This document shows, one piece after another, positions 5,457 through 45,602 of a stretch of 64,000 bases of DNA. The number at the start of each line of letters is the position of its first letter. Position 1 is the stretch's first letter. Source of the DNA: Alentia gelatinosa. Taxonomy: Eukaryota; Annelida; Polychaeta; Phyllodocida; Polynoidae. The stretch covers positions 28,585,716 through 28,649,715 of the forward strand of contig OX465587.1 of the NCBI GenBank assembly GCA_950022655.1, given 5' to 3'. Both the position numbers and the translations under genes were made by a program. Below the pieces are notes generated by a model. The model was not told the origin of the DNA and made no database searches. It saw only the letters and a list, made by a program, of their open reading frames with translations.

Positions 5457-5512
5457 CTTCGTGGAGGGGGTCCCCTTCCTCGTAATGATCGCTTTTGGAA
5501 AGTAGAACTTGC
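5457..5512 (-). CDS. NCF1-like: PX-SH3-SH3 adaptor (p47phox/NCF1-like), exon 12: basic PPPRR segment
   Basis: The 56-nt exon is bounded by 'attttcag' (acceptor) and 'gtatgt' (donor). It enters in phase 0 after exon 11 and leaves in phase 2. It encodes about residues 381-399, ending RSLRGRGPPPRR. In p47phox a similar basic RGxPPRR stretch lies about 20 residues after the second SH3; it occupies the tandem SH3 groove and is released when the serines after it are phosphorylated. Here the spacing is 28 residues. TKS proteins also carry a PPPRR motif, but I recall it much farther downstream. The following serine-bearing exon was not found and may lie outside the window. No junction minisatellite is seen at this exon. 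Confidence 0.8.
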
Positions 5513-5539
5513 CTGAAAATAAAATGGCGAGATGGCTTT

Positions 5540-6005
5540 AAAAACAAATGCGGGTAGGTATCGCAGTGCCTTGTGTATCTCAAAATTATATTTGACACTG
5601 GTGCTGCTATCTGGTTTCATGAAAATATTGCAGTTTCCCATAGACACCAATAGTTAAGCACTTAGCTTCTTCAGATGGCCTTCTCATAAAAGTTAGCATG
5701 GTGACATAGTTTTCTTTTAGGATTTCTCGTTTCTTTATGTTCCCAACCATCATAATACAGAATTATTTGAAGATAGCAATAGAACATCAGTGTCATCTAG
5801 CCATGAAGTCAATATATTGCAGTTTCCCATAGACACCAATAGGTAAGCGCTTACCATTTCAGATGGCTTTCGCATAGAAGTTAGCAAGGAAGTCAACATG
5901 CCAATTTCTTTGCATTTTCTATTTGCTGATATATATGAGAGTTATATTATCTAGAGTAATTTAAAAAATCAATAGAATCTAGAAATCACGCAACTACCAG
6001 CATTT
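5540..6005. mobile_element. Dispersed element with 'tttcccatagacaccaata' repeats
   Basis: The block 'gcagtttcccatagacacc' occurs twice here (about 5630 and 5818). It recurs at 32.2-32.6 kb and, inverted, at 21.1-21.3 kb with the same flanking order ('gctgatatat', 'tctagaaatcac'). It is a dispersed non-coding element lying in intron 11, just upstream of exon 12 in transcript sense. Confidence 0.55.
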
Positions 6006-6144
6006 GTGTGACAAAACATAGTATATGGAGATATAGTGTTCCTGAATATAATCTATTCAGTGTTGTTTCGTGTCAGAAATATCCACCGACATCAAAGGAC
6101 AATGTTAATATATTCGACCAAAACAACAAGATTTATAACAGTAA

Positions 6145-7646
6145 TCTTTACCTTGATATCCGGCTTATAGTGTATGAGGATTTACACAGTAATCCATACC
6201 TTGATATCAGCATTATAATGTCTCAGGATTGTAAGAGTAACCCTGATCTTGATATCGGGCTTATAATGTATGAGGATTATATTCACAGGATTATCATGAT
6301 TTGGATCTGCATGGTATTATTCACCGCATAGTTGACACATAGTAAAATTGAGAGCGATAGCGAGGAGTATTGACTAATCATTAGGAAAAAGTCTTGTAAA
6401 TAATTAGAAATTTGACGCAAGCACCATGCATTGTTTATATAAAATAGTTCCTATAATGCCCGTCAGGTGGCCGGAAAAGCCTAGGAGAAAATGGCTTTCC
6501 GGTATCTACTCAGTAGCGATCTGTAGGCTCTTTAGGCTTATTACGGAGACTCTGTATTAGGAGGGTAATAAAACAGTGATCCTTACCTTGATATCAGGTT
6601 TATAATGTATGAGGATTTACACAGTAAAACTTACCTTGATATCGGGTTTATTATGTATGAGGATCTACATGATAATCCTTGCCTTGATAGCATCCTTAAA
6701 ATGTATGAGGATCATAATGGTAAGCCTTACCTTCATATCAACCTTATAAGGTATGAGCCTTACCTTGATATTGAGCTTAAGACAGTAATACTTCCTTAAT
6801 ATCGGGTTTACAATGTGTTAGGATTATAACGGTAATCTTTACCTTGATATCAGCCTTATAATGACTGATGATTATAGCGGTAATCCTTACCTTGATATCG
6901 GGTTTATAATGTATTAGGATTATAACGGTAATCTTTACCTTGATATCAGCCTTATAATGACTGAGGATTATAGCGGTAATCCTTACCTTGATATCTGGTT
7001 TATAATGTCACATAAGGATTATAGCGCTAATCCTTACCTTGATATCTGGTTTATAATGTATTAGGATTCACACAGTAATCTGTACCGTGATATCGGACTT
7101 ATAATGTATGAGCCTTACCTTGATATCGGGTATATAATGTATGAGTATTTTAGCGGTAATCTTTAGCTTGATATCGGGTCTATAATGTAAGAGAAATATA
7201 GTGGTAATCCTTACCGTGATATTGGGTTTATAATGTATAAGGATTATAACGGTAATCCTTACCTTGATATCAGATTTATAATGTATAAGGATTATAGCGG
7301 TAATCCTTACCTTGATATCGGGTTTATAATGTATTAGGATTATAGCGGTAATCCTTACCTTGATATTGGGTTTATAATGTATTAGGATTATAGCGGTAAT
7401 CCTTACCTTGATATCTGGTTTATAATGTGTTAGGATCATAGCGGTTATCTTTACCTTGATATCGGGTTTATAATGTATGAGGATTTACGCAGCAACCCTT
7501 ACCTTGATATCGGGTTTACAATGTATTAGGATTATAGCGATCATCCTTACCTTGATATCGGGTTTATAATGTATGAGGATTATAGCAGTAATCCTTACAT
7601 TGATATCAGGTTTATAATGTATGATGATCATAGCGGTCATCCTTAC
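6145..7646 (-). repeat. Junction minisatellite of exon 11 donor (48 bp, about 25 copies)
   Basis: The tandem monomer of about 48 bp reads on the minus strand 'ataaaccngatatcaag' followed by 'gtaaggattaccgc'. The first 17 nt match the 3' end of exon 11 and the rest matches the intron start, so each monomer recreates the splice donor. About 25 copies lie downstream of the real donor at 7647. Copies nearest the exon are most regular; those beyond about 6800 are diverged. The array is interrupted at about 6310-6565 by unrelated sequence. Open frames crossing it (7068-7439, 6008-6331) are repeat translations. Confidence 0.9.
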
Positions 7647-7719
7647 CTTGATATCTGGTTTATCCTCGTTTCTCTGCAGATTAATGGCGGGTGTGTAGCC
7701 CTCCTGACTGTCCGGTAAT
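7647..7719 (-). CDS. NCF1-like: PX-SH3-SH3 adaptor, exon 11: end of second SH3
   Basis: The 73-nt exon lies between acceptor 'ttgatttcag' and donor 'gtaagg'. It enters in phase 2 and leaves in phase 0. It encodes about residues 356-380, including DSQEGYTPAINLQ, which completes the second SH3. The final strand normally reads G(Y/W)xPxxYL, and here the last aromatic is replaced (PAINL). In p47phox the equivalent is TGYFPSMYLQ. The donor end of this exon seeds the 48-bp array immediately downstream. Confidence 0.87.
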
Positions 7720-8103
7720 CTGAAATCAATGTAGGCTGGTGAGACAGTGAAATAAAATCAAAGAATCTCAATCTGCTGCGTGTTTCCTGCTTGTGAAGCT
7801 CACAGAGATAAGGGAGTCTCCTGTTATCTGTTATTATACTCAGATCTACTTTAGCAGGGGGTGAAGTGGGGGACCAAGCACAGTGGTGTCTGGTGATAGT
7901 ACTATACGGTAACATGGTTAGTGTGACTGAATGGAATCTGTTCCTTGTTTGTTTTTTGTTTTTTTGTTTGTTTTTTTAATTCAGGTAGGTATAGACAAAC
8001 AAATCACCCTGGTGTGGCCGTTCTTCCTCGTAGCCAATCAATACATCGAGATATGCTCTTTGGTCAGAAATATATTTCCGACCAAAAACAAGGAGTTGAC
8101 TCT
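7720..8103. other. Intron 10, unique part
   Basis: Intronic sequence between exon 11 and the 60-bp array. It has a T-rich tract (7950-7980) and a tail 'cagaaatatatttccgacc' leading into the array. Read on the minus strand, the pyrimidine-rich tract before 'tttcag' at 7720 serves the exon 11 acceptor. No gene is seen. Confidence 0.5.
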
Positions 8104-8562
8104 GCACAATAGAGAGTGTGAGATCTTATGAGAGGGGTGGATAGTGAGAACCTTGTACAGAATACTACTTAGAGAGTGTGAGATCTTATGAGTGGGGTGC
8201 GTAGTGAGAACTTTGAACAGAATACCACTTAGAGAGCGTGAGATCTTATGAGAGAGGTGCGTAGTGAGAACCTTGTACAGAATACCACTTAGAGAGTGTG
8301 AGATCTTATGAGAGGGGTGCATAGTGAGAACCTTGTACAGAATACCACTTAGAGAGTGTGAGATCTTATGAGAGGGGTGCATAGAGAGAACCTTGTACAG
8401 AATACCACTTAGAGAGTGTGAGATCTTATGAGAGGGGTGCATAGTGAGAACCTTGTACAGAATACCACTTAGTGAGTGTGAGATCTTATGAGAGGGGTGC
8501 ATAGAGAGAACCTTGTACAGAACACCACTTAGAGAGTGTGAGATCTTATGAGAGGGGTGGTT
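8104..8562. repeat. 60-bp tandem array (8 copies)
   Basis: An exact 60-bp period with consensus pieces 'cacttagagagtgtgagatc' and 'gaaccttgtacagaatac'. The eight copies differ by only a few bases. 60 is a multiple of three, so the minus strand stays open as a 20-residue repeat (HPSHKISHSLSGILYKVLTM); this is not taken as a gene. Three or four more copies occur at 30660-31040, so the monomer belongs to a dispersed element and is not tied to an exon. Confidence 0.85.
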
Positions 8563-8852
8563 TCCCACCATATCATCCCGATGGTCTTTAAGGGTTTTTT
8601 TCTCTAATACTAACTGATGTAAATGTCCCTTGTGTGCACAGGGGTTTACCACATGCTAGCACTGTATCATGAGGAAGGTTAAGAGAACAAGGAAACTAGG
8701 AAGTTAATTACATAAACATGAGTCGTGAGAGAAAATCGAGGGAACCAATGATAGGAAGAAAAAAAAGGGGTGAAGGGCTCTAAGCCTAGTTCGTTAAGGA
8801 TTCTTCTCCATAAAGCATAGTGAGAGTACAGAATACAACTTAGAGAGTATGA
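8563..8852. other. Intron 10, between arrays
   Basis: Mostly non-repetitive, purine-rich on the plus strand ('aggaagaaaaaaaaggggtg'-like). A decayed fragment of the 60-bp unit lies near 8825-8850. No exon was recognised. Confidence 0.4.
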
Positions 8853-11096
8853 GTTTACTGTCTATATATATATGTATAGAGGATAGCAGACGACAACTGA
8901 CCTGACCTTCCACCAGCCGTCCTAAGCGGGTACAGTGACCTCCACATGCTGCCCCGTTTACTGTCTATATATATATATATGTATAGAGGATAGCAGACAA
9001 CACTGACCTGACCTTCCACCAGCCGTCCTAAGCGGGTACAGTGACCTCCACATGCTGCCCCGTTTACTGTCTATATATATATATATATGTATAGAGGATA
9101 GCAGACGACAACTGACCTGACCTTCCACCAGCCATCCTCAGCGGGAACAGTGACCTCCGCATGCTACCCCTGTTTACTGTCTATATATATATGTATAGAG
9201 GATAGCAGATGACAACTGACCTGACCTTCCACCAGCCATCCTCGGCAAGAACAGTGACTTTCACGCTCTTCCCCCGATTACTGTATATATATATATATAG
9301 AGGATAGCAGACGACAACTGACCTGACCTTCCATCAGCCGTCCTCGGTGGGAACGGTGAACTACTGTGCTACCCCGGTTTACTGTCTATATATATATGTA
9401 TAGAGAATAGCAGACGACAACTGACCTGACCTTCCACCAGCCGTCCTCGGTGGGAACAGTGAACTCCACGTGCTACCCCCATTTACTGTCTATATATATA
9501 TATATGTATAGAGAATAGCAGACGACAACTGACCTGACCTTCCACCAGCCGTCCTCGTCAAGAATGGTGACCTCCACATGCTGCCCCGTTTACTGTCTAT
9601 ATATATATATATGTATGGAGGATAGCAGACGACAACTGACCTGACCTTCCACTAGCCATCCTCGGCAAGAATGGTGACCTCCACATGCTGCCCCGTTTAC
9701 TGTCTATATATATATATATGTATAGAGGATAGCAGACGACAACTGACCTGACCTTCCACCAGCCATCCTCTGCAAGAATGGTGACCTCCACATGCTGCCC
9801 CGTTTACTGTCTATATATATATGTATAGAGGATAGCAGACGACAACTGACCTGACCTTCCACAAGCCATCCTCAGCGGGAACAGTGACCTCCACATGCTA
9901 CCCCTGTTTACTGTCTATATATATATGTATAGAGGATAGCAGATGACAACTGACCTGACCTTCCACCAGCCATCCTCGGCGAGAACAGTGACTTTCACGC
10001 TCTTCCCCCGATTACTGTATATATATATATATATAGAGGATAGCAGACGACAACTGACCTGACCTTCCATCAGCCGTCCTCGGTGGGAACGGTGAACTAC
10101 TGTGCTACCCCGGTTTACTGTCTATATATATATGTATAGAGAATAGCAGACGACAACTGACCTGACCTTCCACCAGCCGTCCTCGGCGGGAACAGTGACC
10201 TCCACATGCTGCCCCGTTTACTGTCTATATATATATGTATGGAGGATAGCAGACGACAACTGACCTGACCTTCCACAAGCCATCCTCGGCAAGAATGGTG
10301 ACCTCCATGTGCTGCCCCCATTTACTGTCTATTATACGTATAGAGAATAGCAGACGACACTGACCTTACCTTCCACCAGCCATCCTTGGTGGGAACTGTG
10401 AACTCCACGTGCTACCCCCGTTTACTGTTTATATATACGTATAGAGAATAGCAGACGACACTGACCTTACCTTCCACCAGCCGTCCTCGGTGGGAATGGT
10501 GAACTCCACGTGCTACCCCCGTTTACTGTCTATATATATATATGTATAGAGAACAGCAGATGACACTGACCTTACCTTCCACCAGCCGTCCTCGGTGGGA
10601 ACTGTGAACTCCACGTGCTACCCCCGTTTACTGTCTATATAATATGTATAGAGAATAGCAGACGACAACTGACCTGACCTTCCACCAGCCGTCCTCGGTG
10701 GGAATGGTGACCTCCACATGCTACCCCAGTTTACTGTCTATATATATATATATATGTATAGAGGATAGCAGACTACAACTGACCTGACCTTCCACCAGCT
10801 GTCTTCGGCAGGAACGGTGACCTCCACATGCTGCCCCATTTTACTGTCTATATATATGTATAGAGAATAGCAGACGACAACTGACCTGACCTTCCACCAG
10901 CCGTCTTCGGCAGGAATGGTGACCTCCACATGCTGCCCCCCTTTACTGTCTATATATATATATATGTATAGAGAATAGCAGACGACAACTGTCTGGACCT
11001 TCCACCAGCCGTCTTCGGCGGGAACAGTGACCTCCACATGCTGCCCCCGTTTACCGTCTATATATATATGTATAGAGGATAGTAGACGACACTGAC
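8853..11096 (-). repeat. Junction minisatellite of exon 10 donor (about 105 bp, about 21 copies)
   Basis: Each monomer of about 100-110 bp contains roughly 54 nt of exon 10. On the minus strand this encodes GQHVEVTVPAEDGWWKVR, the RT-loop-to-tryptophan part of the second SH3. The donor 'gtcagt' follows, then 'tgtcgtctgctatcc' and a variable (TA)n. About 21 copies lie downstream of the true donor at 11097. Three adjacent copies (about 10363, 10463, 10567) carry 'cttacc' for 'ctgacc', creating a stronger shifted donor AAG/GTAAG. Length variation is mostly in the TA tract. The copies keep a readable SH3 fragment but are not separate exons, as no acceptor precedes them. Confidence 0.93.
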
Positions 11097-11232
11097 CTGA
11101 CCTTCCACCAGCCGTCCTCGGCGGGAGCGGTGACCTCCACATGCTGCCCTCTGGTGTAGGACACCTCGTCCTCCTTCTGCGCGCTGTAGCCGCAGATAGT
11201 TTCGTAGTCTCCCACCAGGGCGTCCTCTCCTC
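11097..11232 (-). CDS. NCF1-like: PX-SH3-SH3 adaptor, exon 10: second SH3, first two thirds
   Basis: The 136-nt exon lies between acceptor 'gatgttgacag' and donor 'gtcagt'. It enters in phase 1 and leaves in phase 2. It encodes about residues 311-356. The segment DYETICGYSAQKEDEVSYTR aligns with the p47phox SH3-B start (YVAIKAYTAVEGDEVSLLEG). It continues with the specificity residues QHVEVTAPAEDGWWKVR, including the WW pair that contacts PxxP ligands. Domain completion comes from exon 11. Base composition is much richer in GC than the flanking intron, as for the other coding exons. Confidence 0.92.
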
Positions 11233-12530
11233 CTGTCAACATCAGGGTGTAGGTGGTTTTTAAAGGGTAGGATAAGCAAGAGGTACTATAGAGGAAACTT
11301 ATGAAATTCAGGGTCTGAGCTTGTATCCCATCGAGTCTGAATCGCGTAGTAATTCACAAGGCAAAGCAGCAAGAATTACATAGTGATTCAAATGAGATGG
11401 AATCGAGCTCTGACACTAAACTTGAATGGGTTTCTGAATTTATCTCACCCTTCACATTGAATAACGGGCTAACATTTGTGACATAATACCCAGTTGGACA
11501 TTTTTTCTTAAATATCTAATGGGTATTGGATACAAGTCATACCCTCTCCAACTTATTTATGGGGCAAAAGGCCAAGAGCATCTGTAAGGACTGTCAATTG
11601 CTCCCCTTCTTATTCTTCCCTATATTATTAAGTAACACTAGAGAAAACGCCATTTTATGTATATCTGGCCCAAAAAGCCTCAGTACTTTTTGTTCATCCT
11701 ATATGGACTTTTTTTTCAATATTGTTAGATACACTCTGTATATGTGTTGCTACTATGACTCTAGAATGAAAAGATAAATCATACTGTAATTACTACGACT
11801 GGGTGTACATTGATACCAATCGTAAGATTGAGTATGACCAGGATAAATAAATGTTCTAAAAAAACAAAAGAAAACATTGGGTCAAAAGCCTGTAAAAGGG
11901 TTCACTTGTCTAGGGCTACTTGTACCTCCTACTGTGAAAGTTTGTTCGAAATTATCTATATGTAAAACATAAGGCTCTATCCTTTGGCCTAACTGATCAT
12001 GCTGGCTTCACGTAATAGACTGTTGGAGGTGACCCTTGGTTATGATCAACACGGTCGCCCCCACGCGGTAAACACAGAGCCAGCATATAACCTGGATCTT
12101 GATGTACAGTCGGCAGTCCAGTCGGTTGGCAGTCAATTGCAGTAACACCAGCAATAAAGCTTGTAACAGGATAAAGTCTTGGAGTTATTTATTTAGTTTA
12201 CTATTCACATGCAATAATAGCAAGGCCTACGCGTACCTGTAAAGTGCTGGTTCCACCAACACACAAGATATAGCTAGATTAGTCCCGATTTAGTTGTCTT
12301 GCTGAATATTGCTAGGTTTTGAATAATCATGTGCATATATGCCGCAATGTATCTTAATCACGGTAGTGAAGCACCAAATTATACACACTACATTTTGAAA
12401 AAGTACACATATCATCATGCTCGACATATTGCGACAAAGGAAGTACGACATATCTCAACATTGTAAGATATAACAAGATATACCACAGCAAATCCATCAT
12501 GTTGGTTGAACCAGCCCTTAAAAGGGTTAA
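11233..12530. other. Intron 9 with a palindromic MITE
   Basis: 11265-11460 is a palindromic element: 'agggtctgagcttgtatccc' faces 'gagctctgacactaaac', ending 'ttatctcaccc'. A close inverted copy lies at about 41965-42140. The rest, 11460-12530, is AT-rich without repeats I can trace. An 83-codon open frame at 11526-11777 has no recognisable domain. Confidence 0.5.
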
Positions 12531-12535
12531 CTTAT

Positions 12536-13510
12536 GAAGCCCTACGAATACCTGTTACAGTAACAGGGTAAACTTATCGAGGCCTATGAATACCTGTTAC
12601 AGTAAAAGGGTAAACTTATCGAGGCCTACACATACTTGTTACAGTAAAAGGGTAAACTTATCGAGGCCTACACGTACCTGTTACAGTAAAAAGGTAAACT
12701 TATCAAGGTCTACGCGTACCTGTTACAGTAAAAGGGTAAACTTATCGAGGCCTATGCGTACCTGTTACAATAAAAAGGTAAACTTATCAAGGTCTACGCG
12801 TACTTGTTACAGTAAAAGGGTAAACTTATCGAGGCCTACGTGTACCTGTTACAGTAAAAAGGTAAACTTATCGAGGACTACGCATACCTGTTACAGTAAA
12901 AAAGTAAACTTATCGAAGCCTATGCGTACCTGTTACAGTAAAAGGGTAAAGTTATGGAGGCCGCGTACCTGTTACAGTAAAAGGGCAAACTTATCGAGGC
13001 CTACACATACCTGTTACAGTAAAAAGGTAAACTTATCGAAGCCTATGCATACCTGTTACAGTAAAAGGGTAAACTTATTGAGGCCGTGTACCTGTTACAG
13101 TAAAAAGGTAAACTTATCTAAGCCTACGTGTACCTGTTACAGTAAAAGGGTTAACTTATCGAGGCCTACGCGTACCTGTTACAGTAAAAAGGTAAACTTA
13201 TCGAGATCTACGCGTACCTGTTACAGTAAAAGGGTAAACTTATCGAGGCCTACACGTACCTGTTACAGTAAAAAGGTAAACTTATCAAGGCCTACGCGTA
13301 CCTGTTACAGTAAAAGGGTAAACTTATCAAGGCCTACACGTACCTGTTACAGTAAAAGGGTAAACTTATCGAGGCCTACGCGTACCTGTTACAGTAAAAG
13401 GGTAAACTTATCGAGGCCTACGCGTACCTGTTACATAAAAGGGTAAACTTATCGAGGCCTACGCGTACCTGTTACAGTAAAAGGGTAAACTTATCGAGGC
13501 CTACGCGTAC
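12536..13510 (-). repeat. Junction minisatellite of exon 9 donor (42 bp, about 23 copies)
   Basis: The 42-bp monomer reads on the plus strand 'acgcgtacctgttacag' then 'taaaagggtaaacttatcg'. On the minus strand each copy carries ACAG followed by the donor 'gtacgcgtagg'. Only about 4 nt are shared with exon 9, so this array is mainly the first 38 nt of the intron plus the splice site. About 23 copies end at the true donor (13511). The unit is a multiple of three, so the plus strand is open for 286 codons (CYSKRVNLSRPTRT repeats). That frame is a by-product. Confidence 0.92.
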
Positions 13511-13636
13511 CTGTCGTCTCACAGAGGGACTCCTCGCTGCGGGAGAAGGCGGGCAGCACCGGGCAGAGGAAGGCTCCTGGTGCCCAGCCCTGCTGGGGTT
13601 TGCCGCTGGTCACATCAATGTGCACGAACCACCAGC
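13511..13636 (-). CDS. NCF1-like: PX-SH3-SH3 adaptor, exon 9: end of first SH3 and inter-SH3 linker
   Basis: The 126-nt exon lies between acceptor 'gtgcttgcag' and donor 'gtacgc', entering and leaving in phase 1. It encodes about residues 269-311. GWWFVHIDVTSG then GWAPGAFL give the classic SH3 second half: WW pair, then GWxPxxFL with the conserved Pro. About 20 Ser/Glu-rich residues (FSRSEESLCETT) link to the second SH3. The insertion VTSGKPQQ makes the distal loop a few residues longer than in p47phox (CQMKAKRGWIPASFL). Confidence 0.92.
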
Positions 13637-13994: not shown

Positions 13995-14200
13995 ATGATG
14001 AACTATGCAAGCAGGGCACAGGATCTATGCTTGGAGAGTGGACCCATGCTGCAGAGATACGAGCAGGGCGCAGGATCTATGCTGGGAGAGTGGACCCATG
14101 CTGCAGAGATACAATTAGGGTGCAGGTTCTCTGCTTGGAGAGTGAACCTACGCTGCAGAGAGATACAAACAGGGCGTAGGATCTGTGCTTGGAGAGGGTA
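13995..14200. repeat. 52-bp tandem repeat (4 copies) next to exon 8 donor
   Basis: The unit is 'gcagggcgcaggatctatgc' followed by 'tgggagagtggacccatgct'. It stops about 10 nt short of the donor of exon 8 and carries no exon bases or donor. Unlike the neighbouring arrays it is purely intronic, but it lies at the same relative place. Confidence 0.8.
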
Positions 14201-14208
14201 TGACTTAC

Positions 14209-14446: not shown

Positions 14447-14493
14447 TGCATACCTGTACACCTACTCTAGGATTAGACAGATGGCCTTATACC
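14447..14493 (-). repeat. Distal piece of the exon 7 donor array, cut off by a transposon
   Basis: One diverged unit ('acctgtacacctactctag', 'cagatggccttatacc') of the array that resumes at 15302. The foldback element 14494-15301 separates the two parts. Confidence 0.75.
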
Positions 14494-15301
14494 AGGGCCC
14501 TGTTTTTTAGTGACGACCATCGTTACGGGCGACATGTTTTTGCTGTCAGTGTACTATAGTCGCGATAGTTTAGGGGGTCGGGTAACTATCACTGCTCTAA
14601 GAGACTTAGGGGGTCTGAGGTGTGCTATAGTCACGAGACATGTAAGGTCACGTGGGTGAATTTGTCTCCCAAACTGTCTTAGACCTAAGACATCTATCGA
14701 CATGTCGTACAGAATGCGCAACTTGCGATGAAATTTTAACACGAGTAAGGTATCCATATGACCTATAATCGTACCAAATATGAAGAAAATCTGCCGCACC
14801 GTTCCAAGGATATCTGCGTTTGAATTTCGTCATAGCAAATACTGCTCTGGTGGCCAGTGTAGCTTTCTCCTCACGTGATGTAATTTACTTCACTCTCCCA
14901 GCAGAGATTCCGCGCTGGACACCGCGAAAGATCTGCTAGGAGAGTGCATGTACGATATCCGATCGATAGCCCGATGTTTCAAATTCAAACGCCGATAACT
15001 TCGGTACGGTACGGCCAGTCTTCTTCATATTTGGTATGATTATAGGATATATGTATCCCTTACTAGTGGTAAAATTTCATCGCTTAATTCCGTCGGGAAG
15101 TGGAAAAATCCTCTATATACGCACAGTGAGTTAGACATTTACTGTCTAAGTATGACACTTTTAGCGGCGATCGTCCGTGGCGCACTACGACACCGTCTAT
15201 AGCACACCGGCCATCTTGTATCGTCCAAACTGTCGTGAAATCGCTGGTTGGTCTTGGGCCTTCCTGGCCACACAATGGTCGTGACTAAAAAACAGGGCCC
15301 T
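14494..15301. mobile_element. 808-bp foldback transposon inserted in a minisatellite
   Basis: The termini are 'agggccctgttttttagt' and its inverse 'actaaaaaacagggccct'. The inverted repeats extend hundreds of bases inward: 'cgatgaaattttaacacgag' on one side and its reverse complement on the other, plus the 'cgtttgaatt' and 'ggcgacatg'-type arms. A second copy is at 57750-58571. Interior words ('tgctctggtggccagtgtag') are the source or relatives of the 46-bp array at 36.3-37.2 kb. There is no transposase frame. Flanks rejoin to a normal array unit (ttatacc + tgtactg), so the insertion post-dates the array. Confidence 0.85.
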
Positions 15302-15905
15302 GTACTGCTACTCGAGTGTAAGACGGATGGCCTTATACCTGCATTGCTCTAAGGTTAGACAGATGACCTTATACCTGTGCTGCTAATAGAGGATTAGACA
15401 GATTATACCTGAACTGTTACTTTAGGATAAGACAGATGGCCTTATACTGTACTGCTATTCGAGAGTTATACAGATTATATCTGTACTGTTACTCTAGTGT
15501 TATACAGATGGCCACTTACCTGTACTGCTCTAGTGTTATACAGATGGCCTCGTACTTGTACTGTTACTCTAGTGTTATACAGATGGCCTCGTACCTGTAC
15601 TGCTACTCTAGTGTTATACAGATGGCCTTATAACTGTACTGTTACTCTGTTGTTATACAGATGGCCTCGTACCTGTACTGTTACTCTAGTGTTAGACAGA
15701 TGGCCTCATACCTTTACTATTACTCTAGTGTTATACAGATGGCCTCGTACCTGTACTGTTACTCTAGTGTTATACAGATGGCATGTACCTGTACTGTTAC
15801 TCTAGTGTTATACAGATGGCCGCGTACCTGTACTGTTACTCTAGTATTATACAGATGGCCACATACCTGTACTGTTACTATTATGTTATACAGATGGCCT
15901 CGTAC
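15302..15905 (-). repeat. Junction minisatellite of exon 7 donor (39-44 bp, about 15 copies)
   Basis: The main monomer (39 bp on the plus strand) is 'atggcctcgtacctgtactg' + 'ttactctagtgttatacag'. On the minus strand about 17 nt (CTAGAGTAACAGTACAG) mimic the exon 7 end CTCGAGCAGCAGTACAG, followed by donor 'gtacgagg'. About 15 copies precede the real donor at 15906. Copies farther from the exon are more diverged. Overlapping open frames (15436-15999) are translations of the 39-bp unit. Confidence 0.92.
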
Positions 15906-16071
15906 CTGTACTGCTGCTCGAGGATGCCCGGGTCGGTGCTGTCCAGACTGGCCCCGCGCGGCAGACTCTGGGCGTGGCTGTGAGACGTCCTCACGTTGAG
16001 GAGACCCTCCATGGCCGGACCCTGCACCAGAGACGTAGACCGGGGCCGCCGCTTCCTTGCCTCCTCCAGGT
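15906..16071 (-). CDS. NCF1-like: PX-SH3-SH3 adaptor, exon 7: Ser/Arg linker
   Basis: The 166-nt exon lies between acceptor 'actgtgttacag' and donor 'gtacga'. It enters in phase 1 and leaves in phase 2. It encodes about residues 184-239: a basic, serine-rich linker with EEARKRRPRSTSL near its start and SLDSTDPGILEQQY at its end. The last residues begin the first SH3. RRPRSTS-type sites would suit basophilic kinases such as PKC or AKT, but this is inference. The PX-to-SH3 linker is about 100 residues here, much longer than in human p47phox. Confidence 0.87.
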
Positions 16072-16284
16072 CTGTAACACAGTGAGAATAAGAACTCACA
16101 GGTGAGCTATTCTGAAGAAATACAGTCTACTAGAACCAAGTCTGTGATATGGTGAAAGGAACTCTAATTCACAGCACAGCTATTCTGTAAAAATAGGCTC
16201 TACTAGAACCAAGTGTGTAATGTGTTGGTAAGAACTTTAATACACAGCTCAACTATTCTAAAGAAATAGGCTCTACTAGAACCA

Positions 16285-16600
16285 GGGCCCTCTTTAACCC
16301 TTTAAGGACGGATGATGCCTTTAGGCATCAACCGGCTGGGGGCGGATGATGCCTTAAGGCATCATTTGCTGGATATTTATGGAACTGTTTTTGAAAAGGA
16401 AATATTTTAACAATAAACTTGAAATTTTCACAGAATATAACTGCGCCATAATATTTTCAAATTCTAAATAATAGAAATAGAAATATTACGGATAATAAAT
16501 TATATCACATGATAAACTTCGAATTCTAGGTTCAGAAGACAATGCCCCCGTCCCCTAGAACTGTACATGGCCACTAGTAGCCGTCCCCAAGTGTGTAGGT
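16285..16600. mobile_element. MITE of the 'ggatgatgcc' family
   Basis: Starts 'ctctttaaccctttaagg' and holds the palindromes 'gatgcctttaggcatc' and 'gatgccttaaggcatc'. Related sequence occurs at 58940-59275 (inverted, 'aatgatgcctcaaggcatca') and at about 40685-41000. Inserted in the exon 7 acceptor-side array. Confidence 0.6.
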
Positions 16601-16604
16601 CTGC

Positions 16605-16835
16605 CATAGGCGGCCGGCCGGGCTAATAATCTAGGCACATACATGAAGACCCTTTTCTGTATGCCAAGGAGACCCAGGGATGATGTGGGTCAACTTTATT
16701 CAACACTTATGGACGACCTTATAAATGGATGTTTAAGTCTTAGCAAATGTACTTAAAATTTATCAAACATAACCCTTGTACGAGGTACAGAAATGGGTCT
16801 TCATGTACAATCTTTTATTATTCAACGGGCCCTAG
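16605..16835. mobile_element. MITE of the 'ccaaggagacccagggatga' family
   Basis: Ends resemble 'gggctaataatctaggcac' and 'tcaacgggccctagg'. Its interior inverted words are 'catgaagacccttttctgta' and 'tacagaaatgggtcttcatg'. Other copies are at 16980-17205, 24110-24395, 25085-25315, 41050-41355, 48600-48830 and 60360-60885, making this one of the most abundant elements of the window. Confidence 0.75.
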
Positions 16836-16979
16836 GTTTATGATGTGGTGATAAGAAATCTAACTCACAGCTCAGCTATTCTGAAGAAATAGGCTCTACT
16901 AGAACTAGGAGTGTAATGTGGTGATAAGAACTCTAACTCACAACTCAGCTTGCTCTATTAGGCTCTATTAGAACTAGGG

Positions 16980-17205
16980 ACCCGTTTGATAACCTAGGAT
17001 TGTACATGAACCCTCTTTTCTGTATGCCAAGGAGACCCAGGGATGATGTGCGTCAACTTTATTCAACACTCATGGACGACCTTATGGATGTTTAAGACTC
17101 TCTTAGCGAACAGACTTAAAACTGATTAAACATTACCCTTGTCATGTACAGAAATGGGTCTTCATATATGATACTTGATTATTCAGCTAGCCCCAGATCT
17201 GTAAT
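16980..17205. mobile_element. Second nearby copy of the 'ccaaggagacccagggatga' MITE
   Basis: Same order of words as the copy at 16605-16835 ('gtatgccaaggagaccc', 'ttattcaacactcatggacg'). It lies in the same orientation inside the next array unit. The interrupted units on either side rejoin logically, as expected for an insertion. Confidence 0.7.
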
Positions 17206-17433
17206 ATGGTGATGAGAACTCTAACTCACAGCTCAGCTATTCTGTAGAAATAAGCTCATCTAGAACTAGGTGTGTAATGTGGTTATAACAATAGGTAAAG
17301 TTCCCACCTATTTTATGTTTATATTTTGTCATGATGAAATATATGGACACCATCATTACCTACTATATACTACTAAAAGGCATAATTCCGACAGGATCTG
17401 CTTTGAGACATAGTTAACCTATAGGCTATACAT

Positions 17434-17803
17434 ACCTGGCATGTCCCTGTTCTGGTATTAGGCAATACATACCTGGTATGTCCCTGTTCTGGTATTAGGC
17501 ACTACGTACCCGGTATGTCCCTGTTCTAGTATTAGGCAAGACGTACCCGGTATGTCTCTGTTCTAGTATCAGGCAAGACGTACCCGGTATGTCCCTGTTC
17601 TGGTATTAGTCAATACATACCCGGGATCTCCCTGTTCTAGTATTAGTCAATACGTACCCGGTATGTCCCTGTTCTAGTATCAGGTAAGACGTACCCGGTA
17701 TGTCTCTGTTCTAGTATCAGGCAAGACGTACCCGGTATGTCCCTGTTCTGGTATTAGTCAATACGTACCCGGTATGTCCCTCTTCTAGTAGCGGGCAATA
17801 CGT
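17434..17803 (-). repeat. Junction minisatellite of exon 6 donor (37 bp, 10 copies)
   Basis: The monomer reads on the minus strand 'aataccagaacagggacat' + 'accag' + 'gtacgtattgcc'. About 25 of 37 nt match the exon 6 3' end (AGATACCAGACCAGGGACAT...), and 12 nt are the donor and intron start. Ten regular copies precede the true donor at 17806. Some carry 'gtacgtcttgcc', and the donor GT is kept in all. Confidence 0.92.
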
Positions 17804-17805
17804 AC

Positions 17806-17930
17806 CTGGTATGTCCCTGGTCTGGTATCTTGCGATGACCTGTGGCTGAGAACCTCGCCTGCCATTTCGCTGGGACCCGTTCGGTGCAGGGAGAGGAGAT
17901 ATAGACGTGACGGATACCCGACGCTGAGAG
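17806..17930 (-). CDS. NCF1-like: PX-SH3-SH3 adaptor, exon 6: linker after PX
   Basis: The 125-nt exon lies between acceptor 'tttgttgatgcag' and donor 'gtacgt'. It enters in phase 2 and leaves in phase 1. It encodes about residues 142-184: RRVSVTSISPLPAPNGSQ, then a basic RNGRRGSQPQ, then VIARYQTRDIP. Ser/Pro-rich and presumably disordered. The phase match with exons 5 and 7 is the main reason for this frame; another frame is also open. VIARYQTRD is faintly like the opening strand of an SH3 or the NOXO1 linker, but no full domain follows. Confidence 0.78.
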
Positions 17931-17940: not shown

Positions 17941-18110
17941 AAAAACAGAATCTTTATATGTATTCTTCAGTCATTCATGTACGACAAAAGAAAGGCAACA
18001 TCTTTATATGTGTCCCTCAGTCGTTCAGGTACAACAAAAGAGAGAGGCAACATCTTTATATGTGTTCTTCAGTCATTCAGGTACGACAAAAGAGAGAGGT
18101 ATGTATGTAT
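17941..18110. repeat. 52-bp tandem repeat (3 copies) upstream of exon 6 acceptor
   Basis: The unit is 'atctttatatgtgttcttca' + 'gtcattcaggtacgacaaaa'. It begins about a dozen bases from the acceptor and so lies in the branch-point region, but carries no exon bases. Confidence 0.8.
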
Positions 18111-18459: not shown

Positions 18460-18545
18460 CTCTCTGCCTCGTAGTCGGACTCCCAGGTCTCGTAGAAGGA
18501 GACGACCGTTCCACTGCGTACCATGTCCACCGGCAACTGGATCAC
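18460..18545 (-). CDS. NCF1-like: PX-SH3-SH3 adaptor, exon 5: end of PX domain
   Basis: The 86-nt exon lies between acceptor 'gtcttgtagcag' and donor 'gtgagc'. It enters in phase 0 and leaves in phase 2. It encodes about residues 114-142: VIQLPVDMVRSG then TVVSFYETWESDYEAE. This fits the last PX helices, LPxxIxxSxxVxxFFExxPxD ([21 protein letters not shown] in p47phox). The 5' 41 nt of this exon, with its acceptor AG, are amplified in the array just upstream in transcript sense. Confidence 0.88.
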
Positions 18546-19475
18546 CTGCTACAAGACACAATCCAATAACACAATGTAGAATAGTTCCACTGCGTACCAT
18601 GTCCACTAGAAGCTGGTTCACCTGCTATAAGATGCAAACCACTAACACAATGTAGAATAGTTCCACTGCGTACCATGTCCACTAGATTCTACAAGACACA
18701 ATCCAACAACACAATGTAGAATAGTTCCACTGTGCACCATGTCCACTAGTAGATAGATCACCTGCTGCAAGACACAATCCAATACCACAATGTAGAATAG
18801 TTCCACTGCGTACCATGTCCACCGGCAACTGGATCACCTGCTACAAGACACAATCCAATAACACGATGTAGAATAGTTCCACTGCGTACCATGTCCACCG
18901 GCAACTAGATCACCTGCTACAAGACACAATACAATAACACGATGTAGAATAGTTCCACTGCGTACCATGTCCACCGGCAACTGGATCACCTGCTACAAGA
19001 CACAATATAATAACACGATGTAGAATAGTTCCACTGCGTACCATGTCCACCGGCAACTGGATCACCTGCTACAAGACACAATACAATAACACGATGTAGA
19101 ATAGTTCCACTGCATACCATGTCCACCGGCAACTGGATCACCTGCTGCAAGACACAAACCACTAACACAATGTAGAATAGTTCCACTGCGTACCAAGTCC
19201 ACTAGAAGCTGGATCACCTTCTACAAGACACAAACCACTAACACAATGTAGAATAGTTCCACTGTGTACCAAGTCCACTAGAAGCTGGATCACCTTCTAC
19301 AAGACACAAACCACTAACACAATGTAGAATAGTTCCACTGTGTACCAAGTCCACTAGAAGCTGATTCACCTTCTACAAGACACAATCCAATAACACAATG
19401 TAGACTAGTTCCACTGCGTACCATGTCCACTAGAAGCTAGATCACCTGCTACAAGACACAATCCAACAACACAAT
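18546..19475 (-). repeat. Junction minisatellite of exon 5 acceptor (about 72-76 bp, about 12 copies)
   Basis: Each monomer contains, on the minus strand, 'cttgtagcag' followed by about 40 nt of exon 5 (gtgatccagttgccggtgga...), then about 30 nt of intron-like 'tattctacattgtgttattg'. This is the acceptor-side counterpart of the other arrays. About 12 decoy acceptors lie before the real one. Several copies (about 19200-19380) read 'accttctaca', destroying the AG-containing 'gcag'. Copies at 18840-19170 are nearly identical, so the centre is the youngest part. Confidence 0.92.
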
Positions 19476-20020
19476 ATAGAATACTGGCAACTCTAGTCCA
19501 TACTTTTGTGAGGTTGGAAGTTGATATTTCTGCCTTGTTGTTATGATATGAAGTATTGGTAATTCTAATTTATGCTTTTATGAGATTAGAATTAGTAACA
19601 GAACCAGACCAGCAGGAAATATTGAAGAAGAAACCAACAAGTTTTGGTCAAAGTCATCGTTCTCCACGAGTTTGATATGGAGTGAATATCACGTAGCATT
19701 CAAACGAGTTGGAGAACGACTTCCTTGACCAAAACAATTTGCTTTCAGTATTTATCTCAACCCTGTACACACTAAAACAATGGACAACATACAGGATATC
19801 GACCACGGAGAACGGACTGCAATACTTGTATGGGCATTGGGAACGAGTTCCTAATGTTAAGCCTATGGACATTTATTCCAGGGGTGAGATACAAATGTAA
19901 CCGGACCGAACATGTTCATAGGTCGGGATACTGGTGAAATGAGCGCAGGTGCTTGTGCACCAGGAGACTAGTGGCGCCGACTGGTGTACAAAGGTATAAC
20001 CAGGACATAGTTGGTTAGGG
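19476..20020. mobile_element. Intron 4, palindromic MITE at 19600-19890
   Basis: 'caaagtcatcgttctccac' faces 'ggagaacgacttccttg', with terminus 'caggggtgagata'. A relative is at 26690-26875 ('ggtcaaagttgttcttctcc'). 19880-20020 is unremarkable intron. Confidence 0.55.
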
Positions 20021-22221: not shown

Positions 22222-22575
22222 TATAAGCCCTTTTCCACTGGCCGATAATTTACCACTGATCTGCATGAAACCGTTTTCTACTGGCCGATTATCAACCACC
22301 GATCTGCATAAAACCATTTTCCACTGGCCGAATATTAAGCACCGATCTGCATGAAACCGTTTTCCACTGGCTGATTATTAACCACCGATCTGCATGAAAC
22401 CATTTTCCACTGGCCGATTATTAACCACCGATCTGCATGAAACCATTTTCCACTGGCCGATTATTAACCACCGATCTGCATAAAACCGTTTTCCACTGGC
22501 CGAGTATTAACCACCGATCTGCATGAAACCATTTTCCACTGGCCGATTATTCCCCACCGATCTGCATAAACCCAG
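22222..22575. repeat. 43-bp tandem array (8 copies)
   Basis: The unit is 'ccattttccactggccgatt' + 'attaaccaccgatctgcatg' + 'aaa'. The words 'ttttccactggccga' also occur singly at 42820 and 43503 in a larger element, so this array probably grew from the end of such an element. It is not linked to an exon. Confidence 0.88.
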
Positions 22576-28285: not shown

Positions 28286-28289
28286 CCCT

Positions 28290-30345: not shown

Positions 30346-31140
30346 GGTGTCCACCTACTACGATTTTGCTCCTGATGCGCTACGATTAACACGTTGGCGA
30401 GCTCTGCGACACACAAATCACAATCGTAATGCAATCGTAGAGCTTGGCGTCCATTAGTCAGGTTTTGTCGTCGAGGTCTGAAGTGCTATGACAGGCTACG
30501 ATGAAAAAAACCTGAATAGTAGGGTGTCTATGAAATTCAAACTCATTTGAATTTCGTAACGCATGGTAGCGTACCGTAGCCATATTGGTGGCCTATGGCA
30601 GAGCACGTCAAAACAGAAATCAACCGTCCTAATAGGTGATGACGGACTATGATGTGCTACGATCTCACACTCTCTAAGTGGTATTCTGTACAAGGTTCTC
30701 ACTACGCTCTATGGGAGAAGAATTATTAACAAACTAGGCTTAGAGCCTTGAGAATCCACTGGCCTGCCTCCCGTGCTAAACACGTACATCGATCCAACCC
30801 AAGGATTCCTATAATCTCAATGATGCCACCTAGCGGGAATACTGTGTACTTTGCGCCCTAGTGGCTTTATTTTGGAATACAGAATACCAATTAGAGAGTA
30901 TGAGATCTTATGAGAGGGGTGCGTAGTGAGAACCTTGTACAGAATACCACTTAGAGAGTGTGAGATCTTATGAGAGGGGTGCATAGTGAGAACCTTGTAC
31001 AGAATACCACTTAGAGAGTTTGAGATCTTATGAGAGGGTTGGCGATAGACCTCCCTACACACTACGATGTCAGCGACATCGGCGATGTGACGACATCATA
31101 GCATGTCGGGAGGTCTATCTCAGCGCATCTTAGTCCGTGG
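30346..31140. mobile_element. Element carrying 60-bp units and palindromes
   Basis: 30346-30660 has inverted words around 'acgattttgctcctgatgcg' and 'tacgatgtgctacgatct'. 30660-30715 and 30880-31040 are copies of the 60-bp unit amplified at 8.1-8.56 kb. 31040-31130 has 'gatagacctccctacacac' facing 'gtcgggaggtctatc'. This looks like the parent element of the 8.1-kb array. Confidence 0.6.
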
Positions 31141-33804: not shown

Positions 33805-33893
33805 CTGGCAGAACTTGTTGATGTACCTCTTGCGCCTCTCCATGGCCGTCTCCTTGTTGGCAAACAGCCATCCTCGTTCAAAGTGTTTCAGAG
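33805..33893 (-). CDS. NCF1-like: PX-SH3-SH3 adaptor, exon 4: PX domain, PI-binding second half
   Basis: The 89-nt exon lies between acceptor 'gattctttcag' and donor 'gtaaac'. It enters in phase 1 and leaves in phase 0. It encodes about residues 84-113: ALKHFERGWLFANKETAMER then RKRYINKFCQ. In PX domains this is the PxxP-loop exit and the helix whose Arg contacts the phosphoinositide headgroup (the RRKR here). With exon 3 it reads LELPALKHF where p47phox has HLPAPKWF, so the second proline of the PxxP motif is not conserved. Confidence 0.87.
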
Positions 33894-34090
33894 CTGAAAG
33901 AATCAGGAGAACACCACAATAGAGACAGGTTAAGGGCACTATGACAAGGAATCAGCACTGAAAATAAAAATTTCTTATTTTTGATAATTTCCTCGCTCAA
34001 AATGTTTCAGAGCTAAGAGAATCAGGAGAAGAACACCACAATAGAGAAGAGTTAACGGCACCATGACAAGGAATCAGCACCGAAACAAAC
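33872..34090 (-). repeat. Two-copy duplication across exon 4 acceptor (119 bp)
   Basis: 'cctcgttcaaagtgtttcag' (33872, inside exon 4) recurs as 'cctcgctcaaaatgtttcag' at 33991. Both are followed by matching 'agaatcaggag', 'caccacaatagaga' and 'atgacaaggaatcagcac'. The second copy keeps an AG acceptor and about 22 nt of exon. This is an early-stage version of the junction arrays seen at other exons. Confidence 0.85.
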
Positions 34091-35730: not shown

Positions 35731-35734
35731 ACAG

Positions 35735-36005
35735 AATCTCAGCAAGATTTGTCTCAGACAGACACCCTGTGAGGTATGTGAATCTCAGCAGGATTGGTCT
35801 CAGACAAACACCCTGTGAGGTATGTGAATCTCAGCAGGATTGGTCTCAAACAAACACCGTGTGAGGTACGTGAATCTCAGCAGGATTTGTCTCAGACAAA
35901 CACCCTGTGAGGTACGTGAATCTCAGCAGGATTTGTCTCAGACAAACACCCTGTGAGGTACGTGAATCTCAGCAGGACTTGTCTCAGACAAACACCCTGT
36001 GTGAT
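35735..36005. repeat. 46-bp array (about 6 copies), inverted relative of 28.3-30.3 kb
   Basis: The unit is 'ctcagcaggatttgtctcag' + 'acaaacaccctgtgaggtac' + 'gtgaat', the reverse complement of part of the 82-bp unit. Confidence 0.85.
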
Positions 36006-38459: not shown

Positions 38460-39750
38460 CTGTACAAGTCACAGAATGAGATGATAATTTCCGGTTTGTA
38501 CGGAACTCGGCATAAATGCCTCGTTCCGTACAAACCGTAAATTACCATCTCATTCTGTGACTTGTACAAACATGGTTGGACCTTATATATTTACTATATA
38601 CCCAAAAAAAAAATTAAAATCATTAATTAAATTTTTAACAACCAATATGTTAATAAACGTTTTTGGCAAGGAGGTCCGTATTTTAGTGTACAGACCAGTG
38701 GTCCGTACATTATTTTTACGTTATATGTCAAAACGGTATGTATTTACAGTAAATATGGCATGGGTATATAGTAAATATTTAAATAGAACTACGTTGAGAA
38801 TCGTATAAATACACAATACTCCACGAGTTTGGATGGGCCGCAATCGTTATCGAGGCGAAGCCAAGTGACGATTATGGCACAGCCAAACAAGTGGGTTTGT
38901 ACGGAACTCGGCAACTTGTACGGAACTCGGCATAAATGCCTCGTTCCGTACAAACCGTAAATTACCATCTCATTCTGTGACTTGTACAAACATGGTTGGA
39001 CGTTATATATTTACTATATATACCCAAAAAAAAATTTAAAATCATTAATTAAATTTTTAACAACCAATATGTTAATAAACGTTTTTGGCAAGGTGGTCCG
39101 TATTTTAGTGTACAGACCAGTGGTCCGTACATTATTTTTACGTTATATGTCAAAACGGTATGTATTTACAGTAAATATGGCATGGGTATATAGTAAATAT
39201 TTAAATAGAACTACGTTGAGAATCGTATAAATACACAATACTCCACGAGTTTGGATGGGCCGCAATCGTTATCGAGGCGAAGCCAAGTGACGATTATGGC
39301 ACAGCCAAACAAGTGGGTTTGTACGGAACTCGGCAACTTGTACGGAACTCGGCATAAATGCCTCGTTCCGTACAAACCGTAAATTACCATCTCATTCTGT
39401 GACTTGTACAAACATGGTTGGACGTTATATATTTACTATATATACCCCAAAAAAAATTTAAAATCATTAATTAAATTTTTAACAACCGATATGTTAATAA
39501 ACGTTTTTGGCAAGGTGGTCCGTATTTTAGTGTACGGACCAGTGGTCCGTACTTTATTTTTACGTTATATGTCAAAACGGTATGTATTTACAGTAAATAC
39601 GGCATGGGTATATAGTAAATATTTAAATAGAACTACGTTGAGAATCGTATAAATACACAATACTCCACGAGTTTGGATGGGCCGCAATCGTCATCGAGGC
39701 GAAGCCAAGTGACGATTATGGCACAGCCAAACAAGTGGAGTACTGTGTAT
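38460..39750. repeat. 422-bp unit in three tandem copies
   Basis: Copies start near 38490, 38905 and 39327. The second and third are almost identical over 422 bp ('ttgtacggaactcggcataa', 'acgtttttggcaaggtggtc', 'gagaatcgtataaatacaca', 'gtttggatgggccgcaatcg'). The unit is a transposon-like palindromic sequence related to 1635-1800, 2690-2990, 59270-59640 and 63440-63780. Near-identity suggests recent tandem duplication or gene conversion. Each copy contains the same pair of short opposing frames, which are not genes. Confidence 0.9.
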
Positions 39751-39778
39751 TTTACGATTCGAGTGTGGATCTGAATTC

Positions 39779-40560: not shown

Positions 40561-40563
40561 TAC

Positions 40564-40644: not shown

Positions 40645-40679
40645 CTGTGAATGGAGAAACGTCAACCGTTTACCCAGTC

Positions 40680-41355: not shown

Positions 41356-41549
41356 GTTCATTGCCCGATATCAGCCTGGAGAGTGCAGGTTGATATCTTC
41401 ATACTTAATAACGTGTACAGGCTGCCACTTGTAGCCGGACAGAGACCAAATAAAACAACACACAATCATCGGTCAGCCACCTTTATGGTCGAGATTATGA
41501 CCTGTTTTTACATACACATGTAGGCATTGGCCAAGGAGATGTTTTTAGT

Positions 41550-43580: not shown

Positions 43581-44400
43581 GTCAGTATCAAATAGTCGGT
43601 GAGGGTGCTGTGTATGCCTTGTTTACGGCCATTTTTTCGAACATATTAACCCAAGAATTACCATATTGAAGGGTATAACATTTGGGACTATTTCTTTGCT
43701 CTGCCGCACAAAGGGACTATTTTCCTGTATAACATGGCCTCTGGGCCGTATACCACAGATTTGAATCCGTATACCACAGTTCTGGTATTTGACAGGTTTT
43801 ATATAATGGGTCGTGGTTTACTGAGTCCCCTTACATTCTTAATGAGGTCTTTGTATACGATGGATAATGAAGATAAATATCGCGTTTTTCATGCAGCGCA
43901 GGTTGAATATTGACACTAGACTGGCCCCAGTCCTCTATCCCTCCTCTCCCTAATACAGGGACTGGTCAAATCGGTAATGGTGTCCGATTTCTGGTGCTGG
44001 TTAGCGCCAAGCTCGACCAGCACTCTCCATTCAGAGTTCCTTGTTATTGGTCAGGATATCTGCTTGGAGATTTCCTAGATTTACCTCTGTCTTCAGTCCC
44101 TGTACCCCTCCACCTACTCCTCAGTACAAGGGTCTTAATTGTTAAGACCCCTGTACACAGTCCAAAGGTCATCCACAGGCGGGATTTATTGCTATGATAT
44201 CACAGTACCCAGGGAATTGGAGGAGGGGGAGGAGTAGGTGGAGGTGTGGGGTTACAAGGAGCGGTTGGGGTTGCAATCCACAGGAGGTTTCGTTCTTAAT
44301 GGGCAAGTCTTTGATTCCTGGACCAGTCACACTGCAACAAACTTTGTTTAATCATGAATGTCCATAATCAAAGAATTGAGCAAGCCTATATTGATACTTG
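43581..44400. other. Intron 1, inverted repeat and unassigned
   Basis: 'cccctccacctactcctc' (44105) faces 'gaggagtaggtggaggtg' (44229), giving a stem with a loop of about 100 nt. The outer parts are unassigned. A 95-codon plus-strand frame (43910-44197) has no recognised domain. Confidence 0.45.
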
Positions 44401-44408
44401 CATTAAAC

Positions 44409-45491
44409 GTGAGGGTGGGTGCCTTACCTGGTGTTTGGAGGGCTTGCTTCTCTTCTCGTCACCGATACAGTCAACGTTTAATATGTGAGGGCGGGCGACT
44501 TACCTGGTGTTTGGAGGGCTTGCTTCTCTTCTCGTCACCGATACAGTCGACGTTTAATATGTGAGGGCGGGCGACTTACCTGGTGTTTGGAGGGCTTGCT
44601 TCTCTTCTCGTCACCGATACAGTCGACGTTTAATATGTGAGGGCGGGCGACTTACCTGGTGTTTGGAGGGCTTGCTTCTCTTCTCGACACCGATACAGTC
44701 GACGTTTAATATGTGAGGGTGGGTGACTTACCTGGTGTTTGGAGGGCTTGCCTCTCTTCTCGTCACCGATACAGTCGACGTTTAATATGTGAGGGCGGGC
44801 GACTTACCTGGTGTTTGGAGGGCTGGCTCCTCTTCTCGACACCGATACAGTCGACGTTTAATATGTGAGGGCGGGCGACTTACCTGGTGTTTGGAGGGCT
44901 GGCTCCTCTTCTCGACACCGATACAGTCGACGTTTAATATGTGAGGGCGGGCGACTTACCTGGTGTTTGGAGGGCTGGCTCCTCTTCTCGACACCGATAC
45001 AGTCGACGTTTAATATGTGAGGGCGGGCGACTTACCTGGTGTTTGGAGGGCTTGCTTCTCTTCTCGACACCGATACAGTCGACGTTTAATACGTGAGTGC
45101 GGGCGACTTACCTGGTGTTTGGAGGGCTTGTTCCTCTTCTCGACACCGATACAGTCGACGTTTAATACGTGAGTGCGGGCGACTTACCTGGTGTTTGGAG
45201 GGCTTGCTCCTCTTCTCGACACCGATACAGTCGACGTTTAATACGTGAGTGCGGGCGACTTACCTGGTGTTTGGAGGGCTTGCTCCTCTTCTCGACACCG
45301 ATACAGTCGACGTTTAATATGTGAGGGTGGGTGACTTACCTGGTGTTTGGAGGGCTTGCTCCTCTTCTCGACACCGATACAGTCGACGTTTAATATGTGA
45401 GGGCAGGCGACTTACCTGGTGTTTGGAGGGCTTGCTCCTCTTCTCGACACCGATACAGTCGACGTTTAATATGTGAGGGCGGGCGACTTAC
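44409..45491 (-). repeat. Junction minisatellite of exon 1 donor (76 bp, 15 copies)
   Basis: An exact 76-bp period from 44409 to the true donor. On the minus strand each monomer holds about 51 nt of exon 1 (NVDCIGVEKRSKPSKHQ) followed by donor 'gtaagtcgccc' and 'gccctcacatatta'. All 15 copies keep a usable GTAAG donor. 76 is not a multiple of three, so reading through shifts frame. Variants ('tcgtcaccg' for 'tcgacaccg') cluster in the exon-distal copies, and the copies nearest the exon match it best. Confidence 0.95.
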
Positions 45492-45602
45492 CTGGTGTTT
45501 GGAGGGCTTGCTCCTCTTCTCGACACCGATACAGTCGACGTTGGAGAGGATCCTGTCGAGGCAGGGCAGAGATTCGTACCCGGCGTCCACCTCCTCCTCC
45601 AT
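45492..45602 (-). CDS. NCF1-like: PX-SH3-SH3 adaptor, exon 1: start and PX beta strand 1
   Basis: The 111 coding nt run from ATG at 45602 to donor 'gtaagt' (phase 0). The start context 'ctcaccatgg' is a strong Kozak match. The encoded MEEEVDAGYESLPCLDR then ILSNVDCIGVEKRSKPSKHQ puts the PX opening (VEKRxxPSKHxVY across exons 1-2) about 20 residues from the N-terminus, as in p47phox and TKS. The frame stays open upstream (to SGVSETLTG), and 'cgtatcag' at 45646 could be an acceptor. An upstream coding exon therefore cannot be excluded; the ATG is preferred on context and family length. Confidence 0.8.

Follow-up and report, generated by a model that had tools for sequence, protein, structure and literature searches.

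Tandem arrays across splice junctions of a predicted NCF1/p47phox-like gene in the polychaete Alentia gelatinosa

The DNA analysed in this work, referred to below as the window, is a stretch of 64,000 nucleotides (nt) from contig OX465587.1 of Alentia gelatinosa, and its main feature is a minus-strand gene in which tandem arrays were found at many of the exon-intron junctions. Twelve exons of this gene lie within the window, from the ATG start codon at 45602 down to 5457, and the 3' part runs past the window edge after exon 12. The spliced exons 1-12 amount to 1196 nt with one open frame, and GT-AG ends were read from the sequence at all 11 introns. PX and SH3, the latter in two stretches, were reported by Pfam for the spliced product. 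Its best phmmer match among solved structures was human NCF1 (p47phox, neutrophil cytosol factor 1; 8wej_C, E 2.6e-31), which was aligned in two parts, namely residues 17-141 (the PX part) and 224-373 (the SH3 part). The domain order, PX and then two SH3, is as expected for the NCF1/p47phox organiser, and the gene is predicted to encode an NCF1/p47phox-like NADPH-oxidase organiser. In NCF1/p47phox an autoinhibitory basic/proline motif lies C-terminal to the second SH3; exon 12 reads KRSLRGRGPPPR and the remainder of the protein lies beyond the window. Homologous proteins at E <= 0.001 were not found among 3662 candidates from a large protein collection, and the Rfam and tRNA searches each gave 0 matches.

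The original prediction, made from the letters of this DNA, was that nearly every exon of the gene carries a minisatellite derived from its own splice junction. Arrays were searched with Tandem Repeats Finder and by wraparound alignment seeded by each junction, and their positions are listed in Table 1, together with those of the gene. Arrays of this kind, in which the repeated unit straddles an exon-intron junction, are called mirages in amphioxus. The class is characterised further by unstable length, in somatic tissue as well, by normal splicing that is left undisturbed, and by its occurrence in cephalochordates. Six arrays span a donor site (exons 1, 6, 7, 9, 10 and 11); they have 11 to 24 copies, and each unit includes 4 to 55 exon nt. 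These were the six exons named beforehand, and the wraparound alignment confirmed all of them; the predicted exon share of 4 to 54 nt was right at its lower end and was measured as 55 nt at its upper end. The guanine plus cytosine content was 0.48-0.68 in the exons with spanning arrays and 0.41-0.60 in the other four.

Table 1 Positions of the gene and of its junction-linked arrays in the window (bp, base pairs)
Feature	Position	Strand	Remarks
NCF1/p47phox-like organiser gene (predicted), exons 1-12	5457..45602	-	GT-AG introns, open frame, Pfam PX + SH3, phmmer NCF1 2.6e-31
Exon 1 donor mirage	44403..45542	-	76-bp unit x 15, 51 exon nt
Exon 6 donor mirage	17422..17828	-	37-bp unit x 11, 23 exon nt
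Exon 7 donor mirage	14449..15922	-	39-bp unit x 16 at 15922-15299, 17 exon nt; extra copy 14449-14493
Exon 9 donor mirage	12519..13514	-	42-bp unit x 23.7, 4 exon nt
Exon 10 donor mirage	8853..11151	-	~104-bp unit x 22.1, 55 exon nt
Exon 11 donor mirage	6136..7663	-	48-bp unit x 22.7 at 7663-6576, 17 exon nt; second block 6136-6278
Exon 5 (18545-18460) with acceptor mirage 18508-19483	18460..19483	-	76-bp unit x 12.8, 38 exon nt
Exon 4 (33893-33805) with one extra acceptor copy 33990-34075	33805..34075	-	86% identity over 86 columns
Exon 7 decayed acceptor mirage	16063..17281	-	73-bp unit, ~6 exon nt; blocks 16063-16284, 16841-16974, 17187-17281
52-bp array abutting exon 6 acceptor, ends 20 nt short, non-spanning	17950..18099	-	Tandem Repeats Finder
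52-bp array abutting exon 8 donor, begins 13 nt past it, non-spanning	14008..14196	-	Tandem Repeats Finder

On the acceptor side, the predicted array at exon 5 and the two-copy duplication at exon 4 were both recovered. A third, decayed array was added at the acceptor of exon 7, where three 73-bp copies touch the junction and more copies lie at 16862-16900 and 17193-17252; exon 7 thus has arrays at both of its ends. Altogether, a tandem copy includes the true junction at 9 of the 23 exon-intron boundaries. All eight junctions of the original prediction are among these nine, and two further arrays abut a junction without spanning it. The expression "nearly every exon" becomes 8 of 12 exons by this count, or 9 of 12 if the abutting array of exon 8 is counted.

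Some of the arrays are interrupted. In the donor array of exon 7 the interruption is an inserted repeat at 14492-15302, which is 78% identical to a copy at 57749-58575; this dispersed repeat is about 0.8 kilobases long and has inverted ends (31 nt at 94%). The two blocks of the exon 11 array are separated by a 297-nt gap, about half of which has kin elsewhere in the window, and the blocks of the exon 7 acceptor array are interrupted by two stretches of dispersed repeat, recognised by their kin at other places in the window. Because both exon 7 arrays and the exon 11 array are interrupted by such stretches, these arrays are not recent.

The copies of a donor junction within an array are here called decoy donors, and most of them are intact: GT is kept in 99 of 105, and the 9-mer of the true donor is matched exactly in 54 of 105. 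This state would suit an explanation in which the arrays are functional and selection keeps the decoy splice sites, for example for docking of the U1 small nuclear ribonucleoprotein or for splicing tuning. At the GT of the decoys 6 mismatches were counted, and adjacent non-CpG pairs chosen at random had 14.3 on average, but the deficit was not significant, either by copies (P 0.087) or by distinct variants (P 0.32). Moreover, the use of decoys would mostly spoil the reading frame. At exons 7, 9 and 10 an in-frame stop comes ahead of the first decoy, at exon 1 (offset 76) and exon 6 (offset 37) the first decoy would shift the frame, and exon 11 alone could add in-frame units, up to three extra units of 48 nt. 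Therefore, normal function should need the exon-proximal site, and selection for the decoys was judged the least probable of the explanations considered here.

To describe the placement of the arrays, the rows of Tandem Repeats Finder were joined manually into 38 arrays in the 64-kilobase window, 26 of them in the gene span; microsatellites, for example (TC)n and TTA, were omitted. Of the 26, seven cross a junction, and for 10 the nearest junction is at most 40 nt away. When the arrays were re-placed freely at random in 20,000 runs, means of 1.13 spanning and 1.94 within 40 nt were expected; 7 spanning arrays were reached in 5e-5 of the runs, and 10 within 40 nt in 0 of 20,000. With each array held in its own intron, the expected values were 1.65 and 2.81, and the observed values were reached in 4e-4 and in 0 of 20,000 runs, respectively. 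The exon 7 acceptor array entered these re-placement tests as non-spanning, following its Tandem Repeats Finder bounds, and was taken as spanning in the junction count and in a further test, in which each array was collapsed to one ancestral unit and the block at 6136 was joined to the exon 11 array. In this test 8 of 25 units spanned a junction where 1.0 was expected (P 3e-6), or 9 of 26 when the exon 4 duplication was included (P 4e-7). By placement, then, the arrays of this gene are clustered at the boundaries beyond chance. None of the 26 arrays is situated 34-231 nt from a junction.

These tests bear on the explanation that nothing more than the ordinary minisatellites of a repeat-rich genome is involved and that this gene, one of many, was picked as a chance extreme. 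The window does hold 38 arrays after merging, and the gene was picked by a reader seeking oddities. However, the within-gene P values of 5e-5 to 4e-4 for spanning arrays, and the 0 of 20,000 runs for those within 40 nt, do not suit a chance extreme, and junction arrays of like kind have been reported in several amphioxus genes. A chance extreme is therefore considered quite improbable.

The junction-linked arrays also differ from the others in their relations to the rest of the window. Kin elsewhere in the window were found for 0 of 11 junction-linked arrays vs 12 of 15 others (Fisher 4.9e-5), in a search with queries of up to 501 nt, taken from the start of each array, and counting same-intron matches of the exon 7 donor, exon 7 acceptor and exon 11 arrays as parts of their own array. 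For two of the 12 assignments (at 22231 and 41155) the match is only 22-24 nt long, and when they are dropped the count becomes 10 of 15 (P 7e-4). The three kin-less arrays away from junctions span 39, 84 and 39 bp. The exon 4 duplication has no dispersed copies in the window, as taken from a tandem-copy membership test, in which a stretch counts if it has a same-strand copy within 3 kilobases. The arrays away from junctions that have kin thus look like dispersed repeats, and the junction-linked ones are local sequence.

Mean identity among the decoy copies ranges from 0.95 (exon 1) down to 0.79 (exon 7 donor); the arrays are thus unequally diverged, and presumably they are not of one age and origin. 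In amphioxus mirages the interior copies are homogenised and those at the edge escape this. Here, the copy least like the true junction is the last one at exons 1 and 9, and is found elsewhere in the array at exons 6, 7, 10 and 11. Outer breakpoints were readable, in our reading, at exons 1, 6 and 10, where the joined ends share 0-2 nt.

The explanation we favour, with a probability of roughly 0.6, is that the arrays are mirages, i.e. junction-straddling tandem duplications which are born with a focus on junctions and tolerated in introns. A segment of about 40-100 nt across a splice junction would be duplicated in tandem, the first duplication probably proceeding through short-homology template switching at the exon edges; shared ends of 0-2 nt would suit template switching or end joining. 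The array may then grow through unequal exchange or gene conversion. Because length, sequence and age vary from one unit to the next, each array probably had a birth of its own. The true splice site would stay with the copy that adjoins the exon body, so that splicing at this exon-proximal copy would leave the other copies in the intron and the arrays would be harmless. Births would be focused on the junction itself, and retention would be aided by tolerance. Hairpin-driven duplication was also considered as a candidate and was rejected: when 10 junction stretches (six donors with a donor array and four that lack one) were folded as single-stranded DNA, z lay between -1.49 and +1.46, which is nothing unusual.

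The explanation that has to be weighed most carefully against this is retention only, in which unique DNA is duplicated in tandem anywhere, the exonic duplications are purged, the deep intronic ones are lost to mobile-element turnover, and those at junctions survive through the exon-proximal true site. The introns are indeed rich in repeats: outside the arrays, deep intron comprises 24,344 nt, of which 9,702 have kin in the window and 14,642 are single copy in it. The exon share is at most 55 nt in all arrays measured, and per base the junctions show no excess coverage. Against retention, the 14,642 nt of deep single-copy intron contain only the three small kin-less arrays (five without the two weak kin assignments), and junction arrays are also invaded by dispersed repeats, hence they are not sheltered. 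The absence of arrays at 34-231 nt from junctions is not predicted by plain tolerance, and a birth bias was preferred over retention alone because array frequency falls sharply beyond the junctions. Retention as the whole explanation is thus considered unlikely, though it is better placed than the two explanations dismissed above.

Several points weigh against a birth bias and should be read with it. One is that membership in a tandem copy was 9 of 23 for junctions vs 427 of 1000 for random intron points. Placement bias and the lack of a per-base excess can both hold because 13,525 nt of the gene span are array, roughly one third of the intron sequence, and 8,176 nt of this belong to junction-linked arrays. 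Random points that landed in a tandem copy lacking dispersed kin numbered 290, and 201 of them fall in blocks of junction-linked arrays. The claim of the original prediction that the pattern is far beyond chance is accordingly upheld by array placement and is not matched by an excess per base, and its further claim of a mechanism initiating duplication at boundaries goes too far, since clustering alone does not imply one and the retention account keeps an appreciable probability. In addition, the placement case bars exon interiors. Two-copy duplications, like that at exon 4, and decayed ones, like that at the exon 7 acceptor, were sought by the junction-seeded search, at junctions only. Exon ends were set by frame, splice consensus and the NCF1 alignment, in a gene model drawn from sequence only, and breakpoints were read in 3 of the 6 donor arrays. 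Being single copy in 64 kilobases is a weak proxy for the genome, and mobile elements may make up most of the deep introns. Finally, the material is a single gene, singled out for being striking, from one haplotype of one species, and one gene cannot settle birth bias vs retention.

As a more tentative proposal, held with less than even confidence, junctions may be birth hotspots across the lineage. A boundary-tied process (splicing-coupled transcription, chromatin or replication) would repeatedly duplicate 40-100 nt centred on splice sites, introns would lengthen at their ends, and minisatellites of local birth would be nearly confined to exon edges.

Other repeats were noted in the window. 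A 60-bp minisatellite unit is common to 8110-8559, 30658-30707 and 30878-31038, so some intronic arrays belong to dispersed families, and a 46/82-bp minisatellite family occurs at 28289-30168, 35734-36001 and 1048-1124. At 38496-39738 a 422-bp unit stands three times in tandem at 98%; related pieces lie at 1665-1786, 2707-2774, 59275-59308 and 63446-63764. Upstream of the gene, a 24-bp minisatellite at 45797-46466 begins 195 nt from the start codon and has related copies at 60635-60727. Two adjoining 11-bp minisatellites (53603-53961 and 53986-54573) are apparent mutual reverse complements and make a large imperfect palindrome, and two 22-bp arrays (61562-61656 and 61791-61901) have one common unit in opposite orientations, with about 135 nt between them.

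If births are truly focused on junctions, this would point to an undescribed mutational process tied to boundaries, through which introns would grow and new introns might arise. For splicing, the arrays raise the question of how one donor is chosen among up to two dozen similar tandem donors. The nine cases of unequal divergence within one gene make questions on junction duplication directly testable.

A genome-wide survey of mirages was not found among the matches listed in the open-licence literature. Tandem duplication has also been connected with intron gain: the potato RdRp study is said to follow the AGGT model, in which a tandem duplication creates a new intron. In the excerpts of that study, intron gain is described as a tandem genomic duplication linked to splice-site sequence (PMC4974935). 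Unlike that case, in which a new intron was made, existing introns carry the copies here.

The amphioxus class that the original prediction named is real and fits the arrays, as far as the excerpts of two accounts go (PMC3087553, PMC3902484). In the excerpted text of the first, mirages are tandem duplications across an exon-intron boundary in Adh3 and globin genes, with units of 10-72 bp (Adh3) and 150-160 bp (globins), on the donor or acceptor side and with splice signals in many copies (PMC3087553). The globin mirages of BflGb6 and BflGb9 affect one boundary per gene, and the two BflGb6 haplotypes have 6 and 3 units; references on retinol dehydrogenase and presenilin are cited for two further similar loci (PMC3087553). 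The same excerpts take in B. floridae and B. lanceolatum, propose mirages as a source of new introns and call the genomic mechanism unclear (PMC3087553). In the portions of the second account, troponin C is added to the mirage genes, and lancelet PGBD5 duplications of 60 and 108 bp, the latter with three imperfect copies, are likened to the globin, Adh and troponin C mirages (PMC3902484).

The arrays of this gene belong to the known mirage class, and their density is unusual as judged against the excerpted accounts of PMC3087553 and PMC3902484 only. As in the amphioxus mirages described there, the unit spans the exon-intron boundary (here at 9 of 23 junctions) and many copies have AG/GT signals (here 99 of 105 decoy donors). 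Unlike PGBD5, with its three copies of a 108-bp unit in the portions cited, the donor arrays here have 11 to 24 copies. Unlike the amphioxus globin mirages as excerpted, the arrays here affect 9 of 23 junctions of one gene, a single array has as many as about 24 copies, and exon 7 is hit at both ends.

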